Shown: positions 5,103-39,929, counted from the first letter of the stretch. The stretch: DNA of 44,926 bases from an uncultured bacterium (GCA_937998865.1 CALLBR010000032.1:1-44926); one strand, 5' to 3'. The notes: generated from the sequence alone by a model not told the origin. Numbers and translations: made by a program.

Positions 5103-5266
5103 ACTTTATTTGATTTAATCTCCTTGCAATTCTTGCCATTTTTGAATACTTCCCATGCTTATCAAAAAATCCCCTGCAACAAAGTATCATGCGTTTTATG
5201 ACAAATGAAATATTTTTGTATTTCAATACACTCCTCAATAATCATATCCTTTCTTTATTTACTTAC
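5095..5266 (-). pseudogene. Broken Cys-rich small phage protein, 3' part
   Basis: On the minus strand the frame reads ...MVSK, TAA, RKDMIIEECIEIQKYFICHK up to 5190. It then shifts by one base into CCRGFFDKHGKYSKM...RRLNQIKFV, ending at 5095. Together these read like the C-terminal two thirds of a roughly 75-80-aa Cys/His protein (CHK ... CCRGF ... IARRL) that I associate with phage genomes. Its probable N-terminal third, ending in the same VSK-TAA, lies 3.4 kb away at 8641-8712. A stop plus a frameshift argue that this fragment is dead. One of the fragments, MIIEEC (5245-5162, 27 aa), has an AAAGGA sequence in front and could still be translated. Confidence 0.55.
5254..5266. repeat. 13-bp direct repeat, left border of cassette block
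   Basis: TTTATTTACTTAC here recurs at 8640-8652, and both copies are followed by one variable base and ATT. The two copies bracket the cassette-like block exactly where the Cys-rich gene is broken. They look like a target duplication or a recombination crossover, although the sequence is AT-rich and simple. Confidence 0.5.
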
Positions 5267-5377
5267 CATTTCCCAACCTCGATCAAATGGTTTATCTACA
5301 CGCTAATATTCTTATATTTTTACTTTAGTAGCAAGCGAGGTGTATCTCTCGTATTAAAGCCCTTAGGTAATTGGAAC

Positions 5378-5404
5378 AAAAAAAGAAAAGCCCCGCGCGC
5401 TTTA
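5378..5404 (-). terminator. Intrinsic terminator after the 257-aa gene
   Basis: The minus strand reads AAAGC-gcgcggg-GCTTT followed by TTCTTTTTTT. It lies 15 bases downstream of the 257-aa gene and would end transcripts leaving the cassette block. Confidence 0.6.
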
Positions 5405-5418
5405 AGTTTTTCAAACTT

Positions 5419-6192
5419 TTATTTGGATTTTAATTTGCGCAATTTTTCTTGCTCATCTTTAATCCTCTGTTCTTGTTTTTCAATATCGTTTAGTCTTTCT
5501 TTTTTTAGAAGTTCAGCTCTCTTAATCTTAAGTTCATCAGTTAAATATGCGTCTGGCAATAAGTCGGTTCTCCTCAAATCGTAATCACTTATTTCATCTT
5601 TATCTCTCACAATTTGTTTGCATATTTCTAATATCTCATCTTCCGTAGCGTTAAACACCATCCCATATTTCGGGTTTATATTTTCACTAAAGATATTCCT
5701 ACCTTCCCAATCAAGCTTACATACCCATTCATTAAATTTACCTTCCCAAATATCCAAACTGTAAGAAATTCTTAAGCTTCTTTTTTCTTTATCTTCGGTC
5801 AGTGTGAAAGGTTTATAATCACTAAAAACAGTTATGCTTTTAGCTTTTAAAATCTCACTTCTATTTATTACATGTTTCTCAATATCGGTCTTGTATTTTT
5901 CACTTTCTCTTAATTCAGCTTTGGCAACCCTTATTTGTGTTTCAATTTCTGCAAGCTCTTTATTTTTAGCCTCTGTTTTTTCGATAATCTTAATTAAATC
6001 ATCGTGTTTCTTCTCAATAGGTGGTTTTGTAAATACTTCTTTTACCACTTCTTTTACTCCGCAAGGCTCATCGTGTTCATTGCCTTCATAATCGCTGTAA
6101 ACGTACATTCTTTCAATTATAAATTGTCCGTTCTCTAAAGTTTCGTGAAGCTCTACTGCTTCTCCATTTCTTAAATAAGCTGTCTTTTCCAT
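5419..6192 (-). CDS. Hypothetical coiled-coil protein, 257 aa (cassette gene 1)
   Basis: The N-terminal 50 residues begin MEKTAYLRNGEAVELHETLE and include YSDYEGNEHDEP, a pattern I have seen in Bacteroidota phage and genomic-island proteins of unknown function. Residues about 62-108 are a charged helix likely to be a coiled coil. A compact middle with several Trp (about 120-170) follows, and a second long Lys/Glu helix (about 220-257) closes it. No catalytic motif is visible. It is the last gene of the cassette block, between hairpin site A and a terminator. Its stop is not in a GTTA boundary, unlike three of the other cassette genes. Confidence 0.7.
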   Translation of the reverse strand: MEKTAYLRNGEAVELHETLENGQFIIERMYVYSDYEGNEHDEPCGVKEVVKEVFTKPPIEKKHDDLIKIIEKTEAKNKELAEIETQIRVAKAELRESEKYKTDIEKHVINRSEILKAKSITVFSDYKPFTLTEDKEKRSLRISYSLDIWEGKFNEWVCKLDWEGRNIFSENINPKYGMVFNATEDEILEICKQIVRDKDEISDYDLRRTDLLPDAYLTDELKIKRAELLKKERLNDIEKQEQRIKDEQEKLRKLKSK

Positions 6193-6293
6193 AATATTTA
6201 GTTTATTAATAATTTAAAATAAAATCCCCACGCTTCGCTTTTCTTTTTTTTAGTGCTTAGTTCGGGATGTGAGGTAATTAAACCGCCAGCTAC

Positions 6294-6351
6294 TAACAAT
6301 TTATAAAATTAACCCTACCGGTCGCTACGCTTAATCTTATAACCATCGTTA
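6294..6351. other. attC-like hairpin site A
   Basis: Plus strand: TAAC (6294-6297), AAT, left arm TTATAA-A-ATTAA, a loop region, right arm TTAAT-C-TTATAA (6331-6342), CCATC, GTTA (6348-6351). The arms pair over 11 of 12 positions with one A/C mismatch. The outer flanks GCTnnTAAC and GTTAnnAGC also pair. The same layout, including the mismatch position and 3/5-nt internal loop, occurs at sites B and C. The terminal GTTA contains the stop codon of the next gene. Confidence 0.6.
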
Positions 6352-6687
6352 TAAGCCATTTAATTCCGAAAGGTTAACTATCTCTTTGCTACGGTTTCTA
6401 CGAAGTATGTCCATACTATTATGTAATTGTGGTATTCCCATAAGTAGTGATTTTTCTACCCAGTAATACCTTCCTATCTCATAAGTGAATTTATTTTCAT
6501 TAAGTATAAATCCAGCGTCTTTTAAAAACTGTTTTGCAAAAGGTATTACTTCTGGTTTGTCAATTTTAATCTTTATCTCGAAGTTTTTAAAACGGCTTAT
6601 AACAACGTGTATATCAAATTGCTCTTTCTTACTTTTTGTTGTTTTCCCCATATCGTAAAATCCTAAATATTTAAATTGTTTTCTCAT
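6349..6687 (-). CDS. Hypothetical 112-aa protein (cassette gene 2)
   Basis: A basic soluble protein with alternating strand-like segments (FDIHVVISRFKNFEIKIKI) and a C-terminal helix. Its TAA stop is the reverse complement of the TTA within the GTTA boundary of hairpin site A. The start lies nine bases from half-site E. The gene therefore fills the space between two sites almost completely, as integron cassettes do. No family recognised. Confidence 0.6.
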   Translation of the reverse strand: MRKQFKYLGFYDMGKTTKSKKEQFDIHVVISRFKNFEIKIKIDKPEVIPFAKQFLKDAGFILNENKFTYEIGRYYWVEKSLLMGIPQLHNSMDILRRNRSKEIVNLSELNGL

Positions 6688-6695
6688 AATTTATT

Positions 6696-6730
6696 TGTGG
6701 CAACTTGGCATACACAAAACGTTACCCACA
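6696..6730. other. attC-like half site E
   Basis: TGTGGCAAC at 6696-6704, then C-ATACAC-AAAAC-GTTA at 6709-6724. The second part matches the right-half pattern of sites A-C (C, 6 nt arm, 5 nt ending in C, GTTA). The matching left arm is absent. Only the outer stem TGTGG...CCACA remains. The site looks like a deleted or recombined hairpin. Confidence 0.45.
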
Positions 6731-6743
6731 ATAAATAAATAAG
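6721..6743. repeat. 23-bp inverted repeat flanking the methyltransferase, left arm
   Basis: This arm begins GTTACCCACA and matches the reverse complement of 7444-7466 at 21 of 23 positions. It contains the stop codon of the methyltransferase gene. Confidence 0.8.
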
Positions 6744-7426
6744 CGTTCGGTACTTTTTTTAGTTCCACCTATCACTCCATTTGCACTAAATGTACTTTTT
6801 GCTTCTTTCTGCCATACGCAAACGAAATCATTAGGTGCATTATATTCACTTACGTACACTTTATTCCCTTGTTTACTTTTAGTTCGTACCCAATCCCAAA
6901 ACAAAATATGGTCAAATTTATTATTGTATTTGGTAGTTCCTTCGTATGGTGGGTCACAGTATATAATGCTATTTTCGGGTATATCTAAATCGGTAAAAGA
7001 GGTATTTGTAAATTCAACACCTTTCAAATTTGGCACTTGCTTCATTATATTATTACAATGTTCTCGCCAATAATCTCTTTTACCTTGCTTATCTCTTCTA
7101 TAACCAGCGTACCATTTGCCACCATACGAGTTAAAGCCTATATATCCATTAAGTGCTTTACTAATTTTTGTTTTGTTATCCTTTGCATTTTTATAATCTT
7201 CCTCACTTACATCCAAAGGCGGTTGCCAATTTTCGTAAACAAGGGCTTTCCACATCTCAATAAGTTCTGTATGTATATCGTTTGCTATTCGGTTTCCTGT
7301 TACTTTGTCAATTAAGTTCATACCGCCCGCAAATGGCTCAACATAGTACTGCCCTTTAGTTCTGTCTTTTAATATAATTGGTAGTAATTCTTTAGCAAAT
7401 CTATTTTTGCTTCCCATATATTTCAT
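6722..7426 (-). CDS. DNA N6-adenine methyltransferase, Dam/D12 class (cassette gene 3)
   Basis: 234 aa. It contains the family signature in order: KYMGSKNRF at the N-terminus, the AdoMet-binding motif YVEPFAGG at 28-35, and the catalytic DPPY at 158-161. It would methylate the N6 of adenine in a short DNA site. No restriction enzyme is next to it, so it is an orphan, perhaps protecting phage DNA. It lies in the cassette block between half-site E and site B, inside a 23-bp inverted repeat, and its TAA stop is embedded in GTTA. Function by motif is secure; the recognition site is unknown. Confidence 0.9.
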   Translation of the reverse strand: MKYMGSKNRFAKELLPIILKDRTKGQYYVEPFAGGMNLIDKVTGNRIANDIHTELIEMWKALVYENWQPPLDVSEEDYKNAKDNKTKISKALNGYIGFNSYGGKWYAGYRRDKQGKRDYWREHCNNIMKQVPNLKGVEFTNTSFTDLDIPENSIIYCDPPYEGTTKYNNKFDHILFWDWVRTKSKQGNKVYVSEYNAPNDFVCVWQKEAKSTFSANGVIGGTKKSTERLFIYCG

Positions 7427-7443
7427 AGGTCTGTGATTATTTT

Positions 7444-7466
7444 CCTTATTTATTAACTGTGGGTAA
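7444..7466. repeat. 23-bp inverted repeat flanking the methyltransferase, right arm
   Basis: The right arm ends TGTGGGTAAC and pairs with 6721-6743 at 21 of 23 positions. Its last four bases (TAAC) are the first bases of hairpin site B. Confidence 0.8.
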
Positions 7467-7586
7467 CAATATGTATAATCTATTGCTACTTAATGCTATT
7501 TCAAAGGTCTATTAATATTTATTTTGTTTATGTTTTACTCAAAGTTTCATCGTACCTAAACGCAACATATCATACATTCAACGTTA
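7463..7586. other. attC-like hairpin site B
   Basis: Plus strand: TAAC (7463-7466), AAT, ATGTAT-A-AT..., then about 80 bases, ...AT-C-ATACAT (7569-7577), TCAAC, GTTA (7583-7586). The stem can be extended to about 16 bp with three mismatches, and the A/C mismatch follows the first six pairs as in sites A and C. At 124 bp it is the longest of the three. It holds no gene and occupies most of the gap between the methyltransferase and the 60-aa gene. Confidence 0.6.
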
Positions 7587-7600
7587 ACTACAAATAAAAA

Positions 7601-7629
7601 TTGCGCTCACTGTTGCGTCGTTACGCACG
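7601..7629. other. Possible attC-like half site F
   Basis: C-ACTGTT-GCGTC-GTTA at 7608-7623 fits the right-half pattern of the other sites, and TGCG/CGCA can pair around it. The GTTA again contains the stop of the adjoining 60-aa gene. There is no left half. The match is short and could be chance. Confidence 0.3.
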
Positions 7630-7803
7630 TTCTATTTTAGTTTTTATAATCCTATATTCGTTTGTTTCGTGTTCTTTTAGTTTCTTTCTACTAAAGGTTG
7701 TATATAAGTTGTCTATCGGTATTTTAAGATCATTAGAAAGGTTTTTAACACTTCCAAATATTCTTACTTCATTAGTTTGTTTATTTATATGTACGTATGC
7801 CAT
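7621..7803 (-). CDS. Hypothetical 60-aa protein (cassette gene 4b)
   Basis: MAYVHINKQTNEVRIFGSV opens a strand pair. A helix-turn-helix-like stretch (NLSNDLKIPIDNLYTTFSRK) follows, and the protein ends with basic residues. It could be a small DNA-binding protein, but this is an inference. Its stop lies in a GTTA boundary. It starts eight bases after the 81-aa gene and is probably cotranscribed with it. Confidence 0.55.
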   Translation of the reverse strand: MAYVHINKQTNEVRIFGSVKNLSNDLKIPIDNLYTTFSRKKLKEHETNEYRIIKTKIERA

Positions 7804-7811
7804 TTTAGATT

Positions 7812-8057
7812 TTATATAAAAATTGCTAATCTTTTCAAACCGTTATTTTCTATCTTAAAAGATTTGTTTTTATCTGACCATCTTTTTAATTTATCATAAT
7901 CTAAAGATTCGCTTATCTTATCTTTTAATATAACGTTAAAATAAGGTTTACTGCCCATAAATTTAACCCCAGTAAAATGATCGCATAAATCTAACCTTAA
8001 ACCTATTTGTTCTTCTATTATCGTTAAGGTTTCTTTTCTTTTATTAATTAAGTTCAT
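7812..8057 (-). CDS. Hypothetical 81-aa protein (cassette gene 4a)
   Basis: A soluble, basic protein. Residues 1-20 are helical, the middle is KFMGSKPYFNVILKD, and the C-terminus is FKIENNGLKRLAIFI, probably a closing beta strand. I recognise no family. It shares one cassette with the 60-aa gene. A 22-codon reading frame (8112-8044) overlaps its start. Confidence 0.55.
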   Translation of the reverse strand: MNLINKRKETLTIIEEQIGLRLDLCDHFTGVKFMGSKPYFNVILKDKISESLDYDKLKRWSDKNKSFKIENNGLKRLAIFI

Positions 8058-8112
8058 ATCCTTCTTTTATGTATCCGCATCCACCTATTACAATTTGCTT
8101 ACCGTCTTTCAT
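8044..8112 (-). CDS. Very small ORF, 22 aa, doubtful
   Basis: ATG at 8112-8110, TAA at 8046-8044. It starts MKDGKQIVIGGCGYIKEGY and runs four codons into the 81-aa gene in another frame. It could be a leader peptide coupled to that gene. Evidence is only position and an open frame. Confidence 0.25.
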   Translation of the reverse strand: MKDGKQIVIGGCGYIKEGYELN

Positions 8113-8140
8113 AATTTCTAGTTTTTTAATTATTACAATA

Positions 8141-8148
8141 CAAATATA
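8141..8148 (-). promoter_or_regulatory. Possible -7 box TATATTTG for cassette gene 4
   Basis: TATATTTG on the minus strand, 84 bases before the 81-aa gene, within the 284-bp gap 8058-8341. No clear -33 box. The rest of the gap holds a 22-codon frame and hairpin site C and nothing else I can name. Confidence 0.35.
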
Positions 8149-8271
8149 ATTAACATATATGTAATACACAGGTAAAAATACAAATATTTTAAATTATTTT
8201 GTAATTTCAACATTTAAAGCCAAGTATTAAGGAGTTTGTAGCTATCGCGCCACGCCATTTTTATCAGTAGT

Positions 8272-8333
8272 TAACAATGTGTAAAATTAATATTTGCCCA
8301 AAAGGAAAAAACGAAATCTTACACTAGACGTTA
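8272..8333. other. attC-like hairpin site C
   Basis: Plus strand: TAAC (8272-8275), AAT, GTGTAA-A-ATT, about 30 bases, AAT-C-TTACAC (8316-8324), TAGAC, GTTA (8330-8333). The stem is six pairs, an A/C mismatch, then three pairs. Arm sequences differ from sites A and B but lengths, mismatch position, the 3-nt and 5-nt internal loop and the TAAC/GTTA ends are the same. That indicates conservation of structure and not of sequence. Confidence 0.6.
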
Positions 8334-8341
8334 TTCGTAAC

Positions 8342-8569
8342 TTAGTCCCACAAAAAGGGGTTCTGTCTTTTTTCATACAATCCAACTACACCATACATAA
8401 TTAATCCAAAAAACAAGATTAATAAGATATATATATAGCTTAAAGGATTTATAGGGTTAAGTCTGTAAGCATCAAAGTATCCCCTACCTAATCTCGGCAA
8501 CCCTTTTTTGCTACGTTCTTCATTTGATACTTTTTGTAAAATTTTTAATTTTATTGCTAATTTTTCCAT
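8342..8569 (-). CDS. Small membrane protein, 75 aa (cassette gene 5)
   Basis: A basic N-terminal half (residues 1-38, KVSNEERSKKGLPRLGRGYF) is followed by one hydrophobic segment at about 44-66 (YIYILLILFFGLIMYGVVGL) and a short tail. It is probably a single-pass inner-membrane protein with its basic side in the cytoplasm. No enzyme motif. It lies between site C and half-site D. Its stop sits nine bases after the GTTA of site C. Confidence 0.6.
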   Translation of the reverse strand: MEKLAIKLKILQKVSNEERSKKGLPRLGRGYFDAYRLNPINPLSYIYILLILFFGLIMYGVVGLYEKRQNPFLWD

Positions 8570-8587
8570 CTTTTAAATTTAAATACG

Positions 8588-8609
8588 CATAACACTATAT
8601 AAAAATAAT
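8588..8609. other. attC-like half site D
   Basis: TAAC (8590-8593), ACT, ATATAA, A matches the left-half pattern of sites A-C, but no complementary right arm follows. It lies at the outer edge of the cassette block, 30 bases from the 13-bp border repeat, as expected if the block was cut through a site. Confidence 0.35.
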
Positions 8610-8639
8610 GTATGCTTATGGCTTTATTAAAGGTTATTT

Positions 8640-8652
8640 TTTATTTACTTAC
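8640..8652. repeat. 13-bp direct repeat, right border of cassette block
   Basis: TTTATTTACTTAC, identical to 5254-5266. It falls at the stop codon of the truncated Cys-rich ORF, so the same VSK-TAA is read at both borders. Confidence 0.5.
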
Positions 8653-29591: not shown

Positions 29592-32500
29592 TTAAAATCT
29601 ATTTTCTTCCTTAATTTCTTTTTTTATTGTTCCTCCTCTTCTTATATCTTTTCCTAAACCATTTCTACCAAACTTAAAATTATGTATCTCAATATTTTTC
29701 GTGATTTCTAAAAGACTCTCTTTTACTTTATCGTTACTGCTTTTGATTACCCTCTCTAACTGTTGATTTTGATTGTTTTTTCTATTTCTTACCTCTTTTT
29801 CTAAAAGAATTGAACCGCTATCATCCCCTTTCTTTCTTGAATTAAGAATATTTTCAGTAATAGCATTTGTTAAAATCGTTGATCCTTCTGGTATATCTCT
29901 CAACTCCGCAGAATCACCAGTTAAATACATCCTACCATTAGGCTCTAAAACTATCTCTCTTCCTTCCTCGCCTACAAAAGCAAGTCCTCCCGGTGCATTA
30001 TCTGTACCGCCTGAAAAAGCAGGGATTGGAGCGGCTGCTATTGCTGCCGTTCTTAATGCTCCAAAAGCTGCTGTCGCTATCCCAAAAGGCAACCCCACTG
30101 GCAAACCTCCAGCATTTCTAACTGCTTTAATTGTTGCTGCTGCTGTATCTATTAGAGATTGACTTATTGCCAATGCTTTTTGAAAAACAGCAACTCTTCT
30201 ACTTCTCCTAATTTGCTCTTCTTCTATCTTTTCCTTTTCTGCATCAAATCTTTTCTCTATAGCCTCTCTTTGTGTTGCGTTTTCACCTACTATCGCGAGT
30301 TCCCTTTCCCTCTCTTGCTCCAACCTATCAATTCTCAAATCACTCTCTTGCTGTCTTCTTTCATTGATATTACTGAATAATTGACCTATTTGGTTTCCCC
30401 ATTGTGACACCTGACCTGACAAATCAGAAAGGAAGTTTTGCGCCCTTAATAATTGTAAATCTTGCAGCTTCTTTAAAGATTCATCTGTTTTATCTGTTGC
30501 TTTTTTTATCTCAACTGGTATTTGTTCGATTCCTTCTGTTTTTATTTCTATTGTCTTAGGAGTAATTTCTATTTCTTTAATCTTTTTAAACCCTTTTATC
30601 TTTCTCCCTATAGATTTCTCCTCCTTTTCGTCTAATCCTAAAATTATCCTTAACTGATCAGCTCTTTCTTTGATACTATTTTTTAACCCGTCTCCTCCTT
30701 GGATTAAAGCTCTAATTCTTGATATCTCACCATCAATTAAACTAATTCTTTCCTCGTTAAATTTAACTTCATCACTGCTTTGTTTCGCTCTAAAAACAAG
30801 TAACTGAGCATTCTTTTTTTGTGCCTCTGTTAAATCTCCCGTTTTCCCAACTAAATTCTCAATACTCGATGTGTCATTTAGCTTTTCGTTCTTTTGTATT
30901 AAAACGCTTTGCTCCTTTTGTAAATCAATGACTTGTTGAGCTAATTTTATTTGATTCTCCGATATCTTTTGCAAATTCTCCTCCTGTTGCCTCAAAAGGA
31001 TCGTATTCAATATCTCTGTATTTACTTGCTTTTGAATTTTTGCTAACTCCTCTTTTGTCGTTTTTTCAGTTATTAAAGCTGGTAAATAATCTTTATACTC
31101 TGTATTTAACTGATTTATTATCTTTCTACTTTCCTCCTCCGTTGGATTAAGTTTGATCAATACCCCTATCAACGCATTAAACTCCTGTCTTTGCAACTCT
31201 AATGATGACGTTTGCTTTTCTATATCGGGCGTTATTTCCCCTAATATTTTCGTTAAACTTTGAAGAGTTCCCCGGATGAAAGAAGCTATTAAACCATCTC
31301 CTTTTTCTATACCTAACAAAAAACCCTCCCATGCGGAACTTAATAATTTAATATCTCCTGTTAAAGTATCTAATTGCTCTTTTGCAAACCTTTCCGCTGT
31401 CCCTGCTGCGTTTTCTAAAGCCTTCTCATTCTCATTGATCTTATCTGTATTATTTGCAATTACACTAGCAACAACCGCTCCTCTTTTTCCAAACAATTCA
31501 TTAGCTGCTGATAGCCTATCTGTAGAATCATTTATAATATCCATAGCATCCTCCCACGTTAACCCTTTATCAGAAAGATCAATGAATATATTTCTCAATG
31601 CAGTTGCTGCCACAGATGCATCAATATTATTATCAACCGCTACGCCTAAAATTGCGTTTTGTCTTTCTAAACTGACATTTACCGCTTTTGCAGCAGGAGA
31701 AACAATAGATAATGCTGTTTCAAGTTTCGAGAAATTAAAAGCAGATATTTGAGTTGTTTTTGTTAATATATCAGCAACTTTTTTGCTTTCACTGGCTTCT
31801 AATTGAAATGCGTTTAACTGCCCCGCTACCAATCCTGCTGCACTTGCTAAATCCGTTCCTAATGCTGTGGCTGCACTCAGAATCCCAGGAGTCATTTTAA
31901 TAATATTTTCCTGACTTACCCCTAATCTTGCTAATTCTGTTTGTGCTTTAGCAACTTGTGAAGCTGAAAACTCCGTGCTTTTTCCTAATTCTAATTGCTG
32001 CTCTCTTAATTCTGCCGTCTCCTCGCTTGTCTTACCTAGAATACTATTTAAAACACTGTTTGTATCTTGGAAATCTCTGAACGTTTTTATAGCTCTTCCG
32101 ATACCGTTTATAAGCCCCGTCACCGCAACTAATACTGCTGTAAATTTCACACTTATAGCACTTAGAAATTTAGGATAATTTGCAACACTTCTTTGAAATT
32201 GTCCTGCATTTTTATCAATCCTTTTCAACTTCCTATCAAGTGCTGTGACTTCTTTATTTAATCTCCTCGCTTCTTTTGATGATTCTCCCTGTTCTAAAGC
32301 AGCTTTTTTATAACTATTTCTTAGATCAATTAACCTTTTACTCTCTTTCTCATACAAGGTTATTAATCCTAAAGATTGTTTTGCGCTCTCTTTTAACTCT
32401 TTGTTTCTTTCCTGAATTTTTACCTTAACTTTAGCAATATCTTTAGCCTGATCCTTATTTAAACCGCTTAATCTTTTCTTTAATCTTTCCTCTTCTTTTT

Positions 32501-37657: not shown

Positions 37658-38830
37658 TTAACTTCCAATTACCTCAACTAATTCTTCAATTTCTACAACC
37701 ACTCCCCAAATACTTGCTAAATTCCCATTTTCACTTCCTGCAAATTGCAAAGATAAATTATTATTCCCGACGCTTGTCGGATTAACTATAAATGTCTTGC
37801 TAAATGAATAAATCTGGTTTGTCCCTCTTCCATCTAAACTTATTCCTGCTGTATCTTTTGGCTCTTGTCTATGAACATCACTTTCAGTTAAAACATTTTG
37901 AATCCGGCTATCTGCAAAATTTATTAAAGTTCTTAAATCCTGACCACCATCATTAACAGACCAATTGTAATCTACCTTTATTTTATGTTGTGCTATCCTT
38001 TGTATATTGATATCTACTCCTAATTTTTCCGTGAAAACATTTGAATTATTGATCTGCAACGAACTACTTAGAATCACCTGATTCAAACACGGAATAAAAT
38101 TTGATCCATTCCACCTTAAAACTGAATTGTTAATTATTGACACCCCGGACAAATCAACATCACTATGAACTCCTATTGATGCATTTATATCTTGTCTTTC
38201 TTGACTAGTTATTATTTCTCCACTTCCTGCATTGTTTACATCATTATGAATTGTAACACTCCCTTCATCCCCTGAAACCCTATTATTTGTTTCGGTTGTG
38301 ATATTACTAGCGTTTTGAGCTATTGCGGTATCTTGGTTAGAATTTACAAGGATCATTGAATTAACGGTATCAGTAGTTACCCCTAATCTTGTTATGACCT
38401 CTTCTAAATCATTTGTCCAAACACTTCCATTCCATATATAAATGCTTTGTCCCGGCTTTCTATTGAAGAAATAAACACCCTGACCATACTCAACAAAAAC
38501 CGTTTCGTTTATTTGTGGATTAGGCGCAACATTTGCGATATCATCAAAATTAGAAGCTCTGTAATTTGTTACTAACCCACTACCTACATCACTATCCTGA
38601 AAAAAAAAAGTATCTAAGTCGTTAATTAGATTTTCTAAAGATGTGTAGTTATTACCGTCTTTATCTAACCACTCATTAAAATGTCTTTCTTGACCATCTA
38701 CATATCTACCATTCCCAACATTCCAAACACCAACACTATCTTCATTGACATGCAATTGATGAGTGTATTTTGTAACAATCTCATTTTCTACTTTAAACCT
38801 TCCCGGAATGAACTCTATTATTCTAGCCAT
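37658..38830 (-). CDS. Virion structural protein, 390 aa (decoration or fibre-like)
   Basis: ATG at 38830 (MARIIEFIPGRFK); the longer TTG start would enter the terminator. Begins with a short beta domain, then FVEYGQGVYFFNRKPGQSIY, NGSVWTNDLEE, a central Asn/Ser/Thr-rich stretch with helical or trimeric-fibre character (ASNITTETNNRVSGDEGSV), and a C-terminal beta domain. It is directly downstream of the major capsid unit. Likely a capsid decoration, head fibre or upper-neck protein. Confidence 0.55.
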   Translation of the reverse strand: MARIIEFIPGRFKVENEIVTKYTHQLHVNEDSVGVWNVGNGRYVDGQERHFNEWLDKDGNNYTSLENLINDLDTFFFQDSDVGSGLVTNYRASNFDDIANVAPNPQINETVFVEYGQGVYFFNRKPGQSIYIWNGSVWTNDLEEVITRLGVTTDTVNSMILVNSNQDTAIAQNASNITTETNNRVSGDEGSVTIHNDVNNAGSGEIITSQERQDINASIGVHSDVDLSGVSIINNSVLRWNGSNFIPCLNQVILSSSLQINNSNVFTEKLGVDINIQRIAQHKIKVDYNWSVNDGGQDLRTLINFADSRIQNVLTESDVHRQEPKDTAGISLDGRGTNQIYSFSKTFIVNPTSVGNNNLSLQFAGSENGNLASIWGVVVEIEELVEVIGS

Positions 38831-38876: not shown

Positions 38877-38900
38877 ATAATCAAAATTTGAAGAAAAATA

Positions 38901-39929
38901 CTACAATTGACCAAAAGCAAATAATGGCGTTTCGTCTGCTGTTGATATTGGTGCTACCTGTGGACTTAGATCAATTGACACCTCCCACTCTGTTAATTCA
39001 TCCTGACTATTACCGTTTTGGTCATCTGTATCTGCTCTTTCTGTGTAACCATGAACAGCAAATGATAATCCTGTCATTGGATCAACAATGCTTGAAAATC
39101 CTCCTAAGTAAGAATCAAAGTTCCCTTTTCCTTGTCTGTTTTGCTTTGGAATCCAATCCAAAATACCAGTCATTCCAGCAGGCGCAGCAAAAGCCAACCC
39201 ATTTAAATAATTGCCGTCTGCAATTTCAATAGACTCTTTTGCATCAAAACCTCCAAACTGAAACCCTAAGTTTGTTGAGTTACCGTTACCCTGATTTGCT
39301 TTGAATTCATGAGTCGAATATAATAGTGAACTCAAAATAATATCAAAACTTCCTCTTCCATACTTCTCCTGCCTGAATACTGATTTAATGATGTTCAAGA
39401 ATTCATCAGCATCACCGGACGCAATTTCATACACATTATTTGCTACATTAAAATTGGCTCTTTGAAGAGTCCCAGATGGTGGCGCACTAATCCCATTTTT
39501 ACTTGTATCAAGGAATCCAACAAGCCCCGTTTCAATATCTTCATGAAGGTTAATGAAAGCATTTTGAAACTCGTGCGCTAACATCTCAGCATCTGACAAT
39601 AAGTTATTATCCGATCTCTTTAGAGATGTTGAAAAATTATCCACATAACTATCATAAGCAATATCAACTTCTTGAGTATCTGAATTCCCCCCAGTATGAT
39701 TGTGTGTCCTGCTTCCAGTTGTCGCCCTTTTAGCTCTTTGTTTTAAATATGCTTTCGTGGGTCTGTCCTCACGATCCCTTAAAGTCTTCAAGTCAGGAAT
39801 TAAAAACTGCCTATTTTTCATAAGCATCATCAATACTGAACTTGGTTTTTCTTTCATCTCGGCTTTTTGGAAATTCTCATTTATCATTACCTGAGCCTTT
39901 GCCAATACCGATGCTGCATAATCTGCCAT
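38901..39929 (-). CDS. Major capsid protein, HK97-like fold
   Basis: 342 aa, usual length. The N-terminal arm is helical (ASVLAKAQVMINENFQKAEM). Central and C-terminal regions are strand-rich, with NVANNVYEIASGDADEF, SLLYSTHEFKANQGNGNST and LAFAAPAGMTGILDWIPK. It sits after the scaffold gene and alone between two terminators with its own promoter, as expected for the most abundant virion protein. Fold assignment is by position and composition; no exact motif defines HK97 capsids. Confidence 0.8.
   Translation of the reverse strand: MADYAASVLAKAQVMINENFQKAEMKEKPSSVLMMLMKNRQFLIPDLKTLRDREDRPTKAYLKQRAKRATTGSRTHNHTGGNSDTQEVDIAYDSYVDNFSTSLKRSDNNLLSDAEMLAHEFQNAFINLHEDIETGLVGFLDTSKNGISAPPSGTLQRANFNVANNVYEIASGDADEFLNIIKSVFRQEKYGRGSFDIILSSLLYSTHEFKANQGNGNSTNLGFQFGGFDAKESIEIADGNYLNGLAFAAPAGMTGILDWIPKQNRQGKGNFDSYLGGFSSIVDPMTGLSFAVHGYTERADTDDQNGNSQDELTEWEVSIDLSPQVAPISTADETPLFAFGQL

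Follow-up and report, generated by a model that had tools for sequence, protein, structure and literature searches.

A phage-borne cassette array without an integrase as a probable member of a divergent integron-like system of Bacteroidota and their phages

The DNA stretch analysed in this study, a contig of 44,926 nucleotides from an uncultured bacterium (GCA_937998865.1, CALLBR010000032.1:1-44926; hereafter the window), contains a phage genome in which single genes and gene pairs between positions 5,254 and 8,652 are separated by hairpin sites resembling the attC sites of integrons. The sites and the open reading frames (ORFs) between them are listed below; scores are from two covariance models, R1, which was built from only four sites and misses sites with long loops, and R2. 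Overall, the array is very probably an integrase-less cassette array (a cluster of attC sites lacking an integrase, CALIN) that belongs to a divergent integron-like system found in Bacteroidota and in their phages.

6294..6351, + strand: attC-like site 1, 58 nt; R1 62.3 bits, R2 41.8 bits (E 6e-6), this site being a training row of both models
6600..6724, + strand: attC-like site 2, 125 nt; flanking 10-mers pair 10/10 with the neighbouring sites on both sides
7464..7586, + strand: attC-like site 3, 123 nt; R2 E 4e-5
8272..8333, + strand: attC-like site 4, 62 nt; R1 56.7 bits, R2 48.3 bits (E 2.4e-7)
8584..8650 (right end approximate), + strand: decayed fifth site; R'' box TACGCATAAC retained, right half without the terminal GTTA
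6349..6721, - strand: cassette 1, 112-aa ORF 6349-6687 (no Pfam match) and site 2; ends GTTATAAGCC / GGCTTATAAC
6722..7583, - strand: cassette 2, D12-class N6-adenine DNA methyltransferase 6722-7426 and site 3; ends GTTACCCACA / TGTGGGTAAC
7584..8330, - strand: cassette 3, ORFs 7621-7803 and 7812-8057 and site 4; ends GTTAACTACA / AGTAGTTAAC
8331..8650, - strand: cassette 4 (fossil), 75-aa ORF 8342-8569 and the decayed site
5419..6192, - strand: 257-aa ORF left of site 1

On the top strand the sites share one form: TAAC, AAY, a 6-nt arm, an A, further stem, a loop, stem, a C, a second 6-nt arm, four nucleotides plus C, and GTTA. A scan of the window for perfect arms returned four sites on the plus strand and none on the minus strand, against a Markov shuffle expectation of 0.135. 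The original prediction, made from this DNA alone, had described three sites of one structure, and they are present exactly so at 6294-6351, 7464-7586 and 8272-8333; two of its sites were placed correctly and the third, begun at 7463, was off by one. All three are real, and the count was incomplete: the intact site at 6600-6724, whose anatomy is complete (TAAC-AAC-GTGTAT-A-TCAA-A-TTGC ... GCAA-C-TTGG-C-ATACAC-AAAAC-GTTA), was overlooked because it overlaps the 5' end of ORF 6349-6687, and a decayed fifth lies at about 8590-8650. The A/C mismatch that had been noted is present at its position, but its nature is that of a G-T wobble on the bottom strand. The sites were also said to fill almost all non-coding space, which holds roughly, except that site 2 lies partly in coding sequence and that 8058-8265 is non-coding. 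The predicted absence of an integrase was confirmed by tblastn of the window with a set of integrases, which found none, so that four structurally intact sites stand without an integrase where a CALIN is defined by at least two attC sites with none nearby. A tRNA search of the window found none.

If ten nucleotides are read from the GTTA of a site onwards, they are reverse-complementary to the ten that end in the TAAC of the next site. All three adjacent site pairs of the window obey this rule, with complementarity within the cassette of 10/10, 10/10 and 9/10, and in cassette 1 the outer 6-mer is matched 6/6. Even the decayed unit is matched 9/10, between the R'' box TACGCATAAC at 8584 and GTTATTCGTA, which comes after site 4 (8272-8333). 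Since the ends match across the cassette, with the partner at the next site, matched ends are a property of the cassette and not of the site. In integrons, the first bases of a circular cassette (R') pair with the R'' of its own attC, and in most known cassettes this pairing spans 9-11 nt (PMC2727003). It had been remarked that the site ends depart from the RYYYAAC/GTTRRRY boxes, and the flanks in the window (TACTAAC, TTATAAC, GGGTAAC and AGTTAAC) indeed do not fit, although some other members of the family fit the full consensus (e.g. GCCTAAC); this doubt is resolved because the ends are complementary over about 10 nt within each cassette, like R' and R''. When outer 6-mers with at least 5/6 reverse complementarity were counted as matched, 54/100 adjacent pairs matched, a figure depressed by intermediate sites that the scanner missed, versus 5/210 for the two flanks of one site. 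The same test on arrays with a viral integrase gave 55/97 adjacent pairs versus 3/152 same-site flanks. A matching left cassette end for ORF 5419-6192 was looked for nearby and none was found.

The methyltransferase ORF 6722-7426 was assigned to Pfam PF02086 (E 1.9e-17), and both its stop codon and that of ORF 6349-6687 are TAA, formed by the complement of TTA in the GTTA of a site. DNA methyltransferases from three Pfam families are abundant in the cargo of this system, which also includes an RNA ligase and a HAD RNA-repair domain. Cellulophaga phage phi19:1 gave the best DNA match to the window's methyltransferase, and around that gene it has no detectable sites.

One degenerate pattern of the site was found on 56 IMG/VR contigs and 47 contigs of named genomes, and all but one of these 47 are labelled Bacteroidota. 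The expectation that a covariance model would find the sites beside other cargo was borne out, with model and pattern locating them next to other genes in dozens of phages and Bacteroidota genomes. Across 1.51 Mb of related loci, a stricter scanner detected 211 sites, and shuffled versions of the loci gave none; most loci had been obtained by the site pattern, so the 211 sites indicate extent and no unbiased rate, and the counts are biased to arms of the RTGTA type. As R1 missed long-loop sites, counts are based on the script scanner and R2. The sole label outside Bacteroidota belongs to a Desulfobacterales metagenome-assembled genome (L152, 3411-3473), by transfer or mis-binning.

A tyrosine recombinase had been expected beside host arrays, and bacterial arrays do lie directly downstream of an IntI-related gene. 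Most of 30 site-holding genomes encode an IntI-like protein of about 375 aa, and no protein above the TIGR02249 cut-off occurs in these 30. In 15/20 bacterial loci with an IntI-like gene, same-strand sites are found downstream of it; none are upstream. For the array-linked recombinases, NCBIfam NF040815 ('site-specific tyrosine recombinase/integron integrase') is the best-scoring model, with 5/7 above its cut-off, and this NCBI name says nothing on sites or arrays. The catalytic R, K, H, R, H and Y are invariant in the recombinase alignment (A2), the predicted fold has the Vibrio cholerae integron integrase as its best PDB match (2a3v, E 5.5e-17), and in the tree the array-linked enzymes and IntI1 are separated from the Bacteroidota Xer proteins with full support. 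By alignment with IntI1 and IntI4, the IntI-specific insertion of about 42 aa is missing. Most bacterial members are extended at the N-terminus by about 90 residues that match no Pfam family (e.g. residues 1-90 in L170, L171 and L180), a stretch that is missing from viral enzymes and from L164 and L165.

Several bacterial loci have features of their own. In Robertkochia solimangrovi (G190:C19 50140-50931; L174/L205), the array-linked recombinase is broken by one stop codon beside a five-site array. A recombinase carried by Acinetobacter plasmids (H55-H60) is annotated as tyrosine-type recombinase/integrase or TnpF, and it shares 53% identity over 230 residues with the Aquimarina array recombinase. 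The Rufibacter tibetensis plasmid NZ_CP012644 (L304) carries the recombinase and at least three GC-richer variant sites, with one adjacent site pair matched 6/6 at its ends, a plasmid-borne version.

Viruses also encode recombinases of this kind. When IMG/VR was scanned with the recombinase alignment, 80 contigs of up to 349 kb came back, and 53 loci offered more than 1.5 kb of upstream sequence. The viral sites stand directly upstream of the recombinase gene: 146/152 of them, in 49 loci, are on that side, every one on the strand opposite to the gene. The T4-type portal was found in 6/30 viral records tested (108-349 kb), a more telling model than Terminase_6C, which matches few of the records. 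In the tree, 20/22 viral enzymes fall in one supported clade. None of the isolated phages in the collection encodes an enzyme close to the viral recombinase, the best reaching about 37% identity. In four of the viral integrase arrays (L251, L256, L275 and L294), cassette ORFs often start inside the upstream attC, and unrelated cassette proteins thereby share an N-terminal stretch (e.g. LHISDVMCS, LGISDVMCS and LGISVVISS), so that the site seems to be translated as a short leader.

The direction of the cassette genes differs between bacteria and viruses. In cassettes with matched ends, the longest ORF is parallel to the site in bacteria (22:1) and antiparallel in phages (24:1) and in arrays with a viral integrase (54:0); every cassette gene of the window is antiparallel to its site. 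Because of this opposite orientation, the viral cassettes are a separate pool and not borrowed bacterial cassettes. With antiparallel genes, the strand that recombines would also be the coding strand, and this may be the reason for the arrangement, since the coding strand serves as lagging-strand template wherever transcription and replication run in the same direction. We lean, with some reserve, towards the further view that Bacteroidota viruses keep an integron lineage of their own, with a monophyletic recombinase in large T4-type phages, antiparallel cassettes, small phages using the same virus-specific pool, and recognition without extrahelical bases or the IntI insertion.

The paired structure of the sites is conserved. 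Compensatory change was found in 210 cells versus 70 in shuffles (three times the shuffled mean), and moving the partner by one column drops pairing from 90% to 27%. Besides the A/C at position 7, a second A/C, five positions further in (position 12), is conserved. At the position of the classical extrahelical G in L'', 74/90 phage and 40/56 bacterial sites have A/C on the top strand, that is G-T on the bottom strand, and the base without a partner in L'' by which integron sites are defined is absent. When the fixed A/C positions 7 and 12 are excluded, top-strand A-C/C-A mismatches outnumber G-T/T-G mismatches by 49:6 in phages and 38:4 in bacteria, neither kind having been credited in the search, and the bottom strand is predicted to be the more stable in 185/203 sites. 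As far as can be read from sequence, this shows the bottom strand to be the selected fold in phages and bacteria. In the 2a3v complex, the IntI insertion contacts the extrahelical bases; the missing insertion and the missing extrahelical bases would fit each other. Overall, the system is not canonical IntI/attC, since its recombinases lack the IntI insertion and its sites lack the extrahelical bases.

Shuffling in related phages had been named as a sign of cassette movement, and homology shared by different phages was seen to end precisely at sites. Of the 271 non-edge homology ends between phage contigs, 33 coincide with a site boundary in each of the two contigs, although positions close to a boundary make up only about 0.9% of the sequence. 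One contig (L077) and Polaribacter phage P12002L have in common an 883-bp methyltransferase cassette of 74% identity that ends at both sites, and L111 and L113 are 96% identical over 194 bases starting at CGTTA. The earlier reading of the array as following integron cassette logic is supported, and we infer from it that the units are mobile as cassettes.

In the proposed mechanism, the bottom strand, once single-stranded, would form a hairpin in which the R and L arms are paired and the central spacer is asymmetric (3/5 nt); where classical attC has extrahelical bases, it would have two G-T pairs. An IntI-related tyrosine recombinase would then join two sites between the C and the GTTA, and a cassette, made up of a gene and its own site, would exit or enter as a circle. 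The window phage encodes no such enzyme and may therefore depend on one provided in trans, either from the host chromosome or from a co-infecting large phage. The benefit may lie, for example, in the exchange of protective DNA methyltransferases.

Several observations weigh against this interpretation. The co-binned bacterium has only two tyrosine recombinases, both of which group with Xer in the tree, and none of 16 genomes in its genus has an integron-type recombinase. Such a recombinase occurs in about 17/176 genomes of the host's order; R1 and R2, run with strict filters, found nothing outside the window in these 176 genomes, where the sites may be of a different form. Ten integrase-bearing loci from this order (L308-L317) gave at most single weak sites with the scanner, and the integrase-bearing genomes may carry a further site variant. 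Similarity of the sites itself partly promotes homology ends at sites, and the loci were gathered using a site pattern. Neither an excised circle nor an empty site nor two states of one array was observed.

Different explanations of the sites need to be weighed against these data. It is quite improbable that they are ordinary attC sites acquired by chance from bacterial IntI integrons, as proposed for known phage CALINs. The TAACAA...C-GTTA ends, the R'/R'' logic and the methyltransferase cargo would fit such an origin, as would the presence of the same sites in the published CALIN phage P12002L. However, the antiparallel phage genes indicate that the cassettes were not simply lifted from bacteria, and neither the lack of extrahelical bases nor linked recombinases without the IntI insertion agree with it. 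R2 is also without a match to a class 1 integron region (L307, no match at E up to 1, in a one-way comparison with the R2 model only). It appears highly improbable that the hairpins are RNA elements between phage genes (processing sites, terminators or 5' untranslated region structures), the A/C being G-U in the transcript. The bottom strand is the mRNA strand in the window and other phages and folds better, and the hairpins stand between genes of a single operon, as such elements might. In bacteria, however, it is the top strand that is transcribed, and the wobble bias is towards the bottom strand there too. Since gene directions are opposite in phages and bacteria, the bias tracks the site and not the transcript, a finding that favours folding of the DNA bottom strand, as in integrons, over an RNA element. 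The sites also adjoin a recombinase, and an RNA hairpin does not need end complementarity across a gene. The sites may have an additional RNA role in phages.

A third explanation accepts the site family as real and treats the cassettes of small phages as relics of integron activity that homologous recombination at repeated linkers now shuffles passively. This we regard as rather doubtful, although an integrase is found in none of 61 integrase-less phage loci, the end site of the window is decayed, and short shared sites could seed homologous exchange. Neighbouring sites differ in arms and loops, which leaves little homology available; the cassette-specific R boxes remain matched, which requires renewal or selection; and compensatory selection on site structure is found in phages too. 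IS200/IS605-like or repetitive extragenic palindromic (REP) elements were ruled out, as the complementary ends enclose a gene rather than a hairpin.

With integron attC, the sites share AAC/GTT ends, L arms, an asymmetric central spacer and a C before GTT, and with integrons they share the 9-11 nt R'/R'' complementarity (PMC2727003), the bottom-strand preference and tandem cassettes beside a tyrosine recombinase. Unlike in attC, two conserved G-T pairs (A/C on top) replace the extrahelical bases, and the R boxes are often off the full consensus; unlike in IntI integrons, the recombinase lacks the insertion of about 42 aa and viral genes are antiparallel to attC. In inverted integrons, e.g. those of Spirochaetes, intI is co-directional with the array. 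The bacterial arrays resemble them in lying downstream of a co-directional recombinase gene, but differ in recombinase and site features, and the viral versions are divergently arranged. In an integron-like subgroup of tyrosine recombinases, the insertion is not fully conserved (PMC8138268).

Phage CALINs and their methyltransferases, including those of P12002L, were published in 2023 (Qi et al. 2023, PMC9892861). In the P12002L genome (NC_028924), members of the site family occur at 32223-32281, 38035-38090 and 38879-38936; they flank methyltransferase genes, which run antiparallel to them, and their 3' spacer is 6 nt long against 5 nt in the window. One of two tested attC sites of this phage recombined with IntI1 (PMC9892861). 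That study describes neither the Bacteroidota site family, nor its recombinase, nor virus-borne integrases of such a type. Phage CALINs are thus already known, and the array of the window belongs to a divergent site family. Integrons have been considered near-absent from Bacteroidota, where integrase-alone elements only, and then one complete integron in Salinibacter, were reported (PMC9024848). In the open literature, with preprints and most subscription papers outside the search, no paper was found on the site family or its virus-borne form.

The present analysis suggests that integron-like systems are common in Bacteroidota and were overlooked because both sites and integrases are divergent. 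The virus-borne versions would represent a dedicated platform for gene exchange between phages, stocked with anti-restriction methyltransferases, and would help to explain phage mosaicism. That cassette genes point one way in viruses and the other way in bacteria is a clear and testable puzzle, and with the extrahelical bases and the IntI insertion jointly lost, the way in which hairpin sites are recognised can be tested directly. If Bacteroidota viruses do keep their own integron lineage, it would be a second solution to the recombination of single-stranded hairpins.

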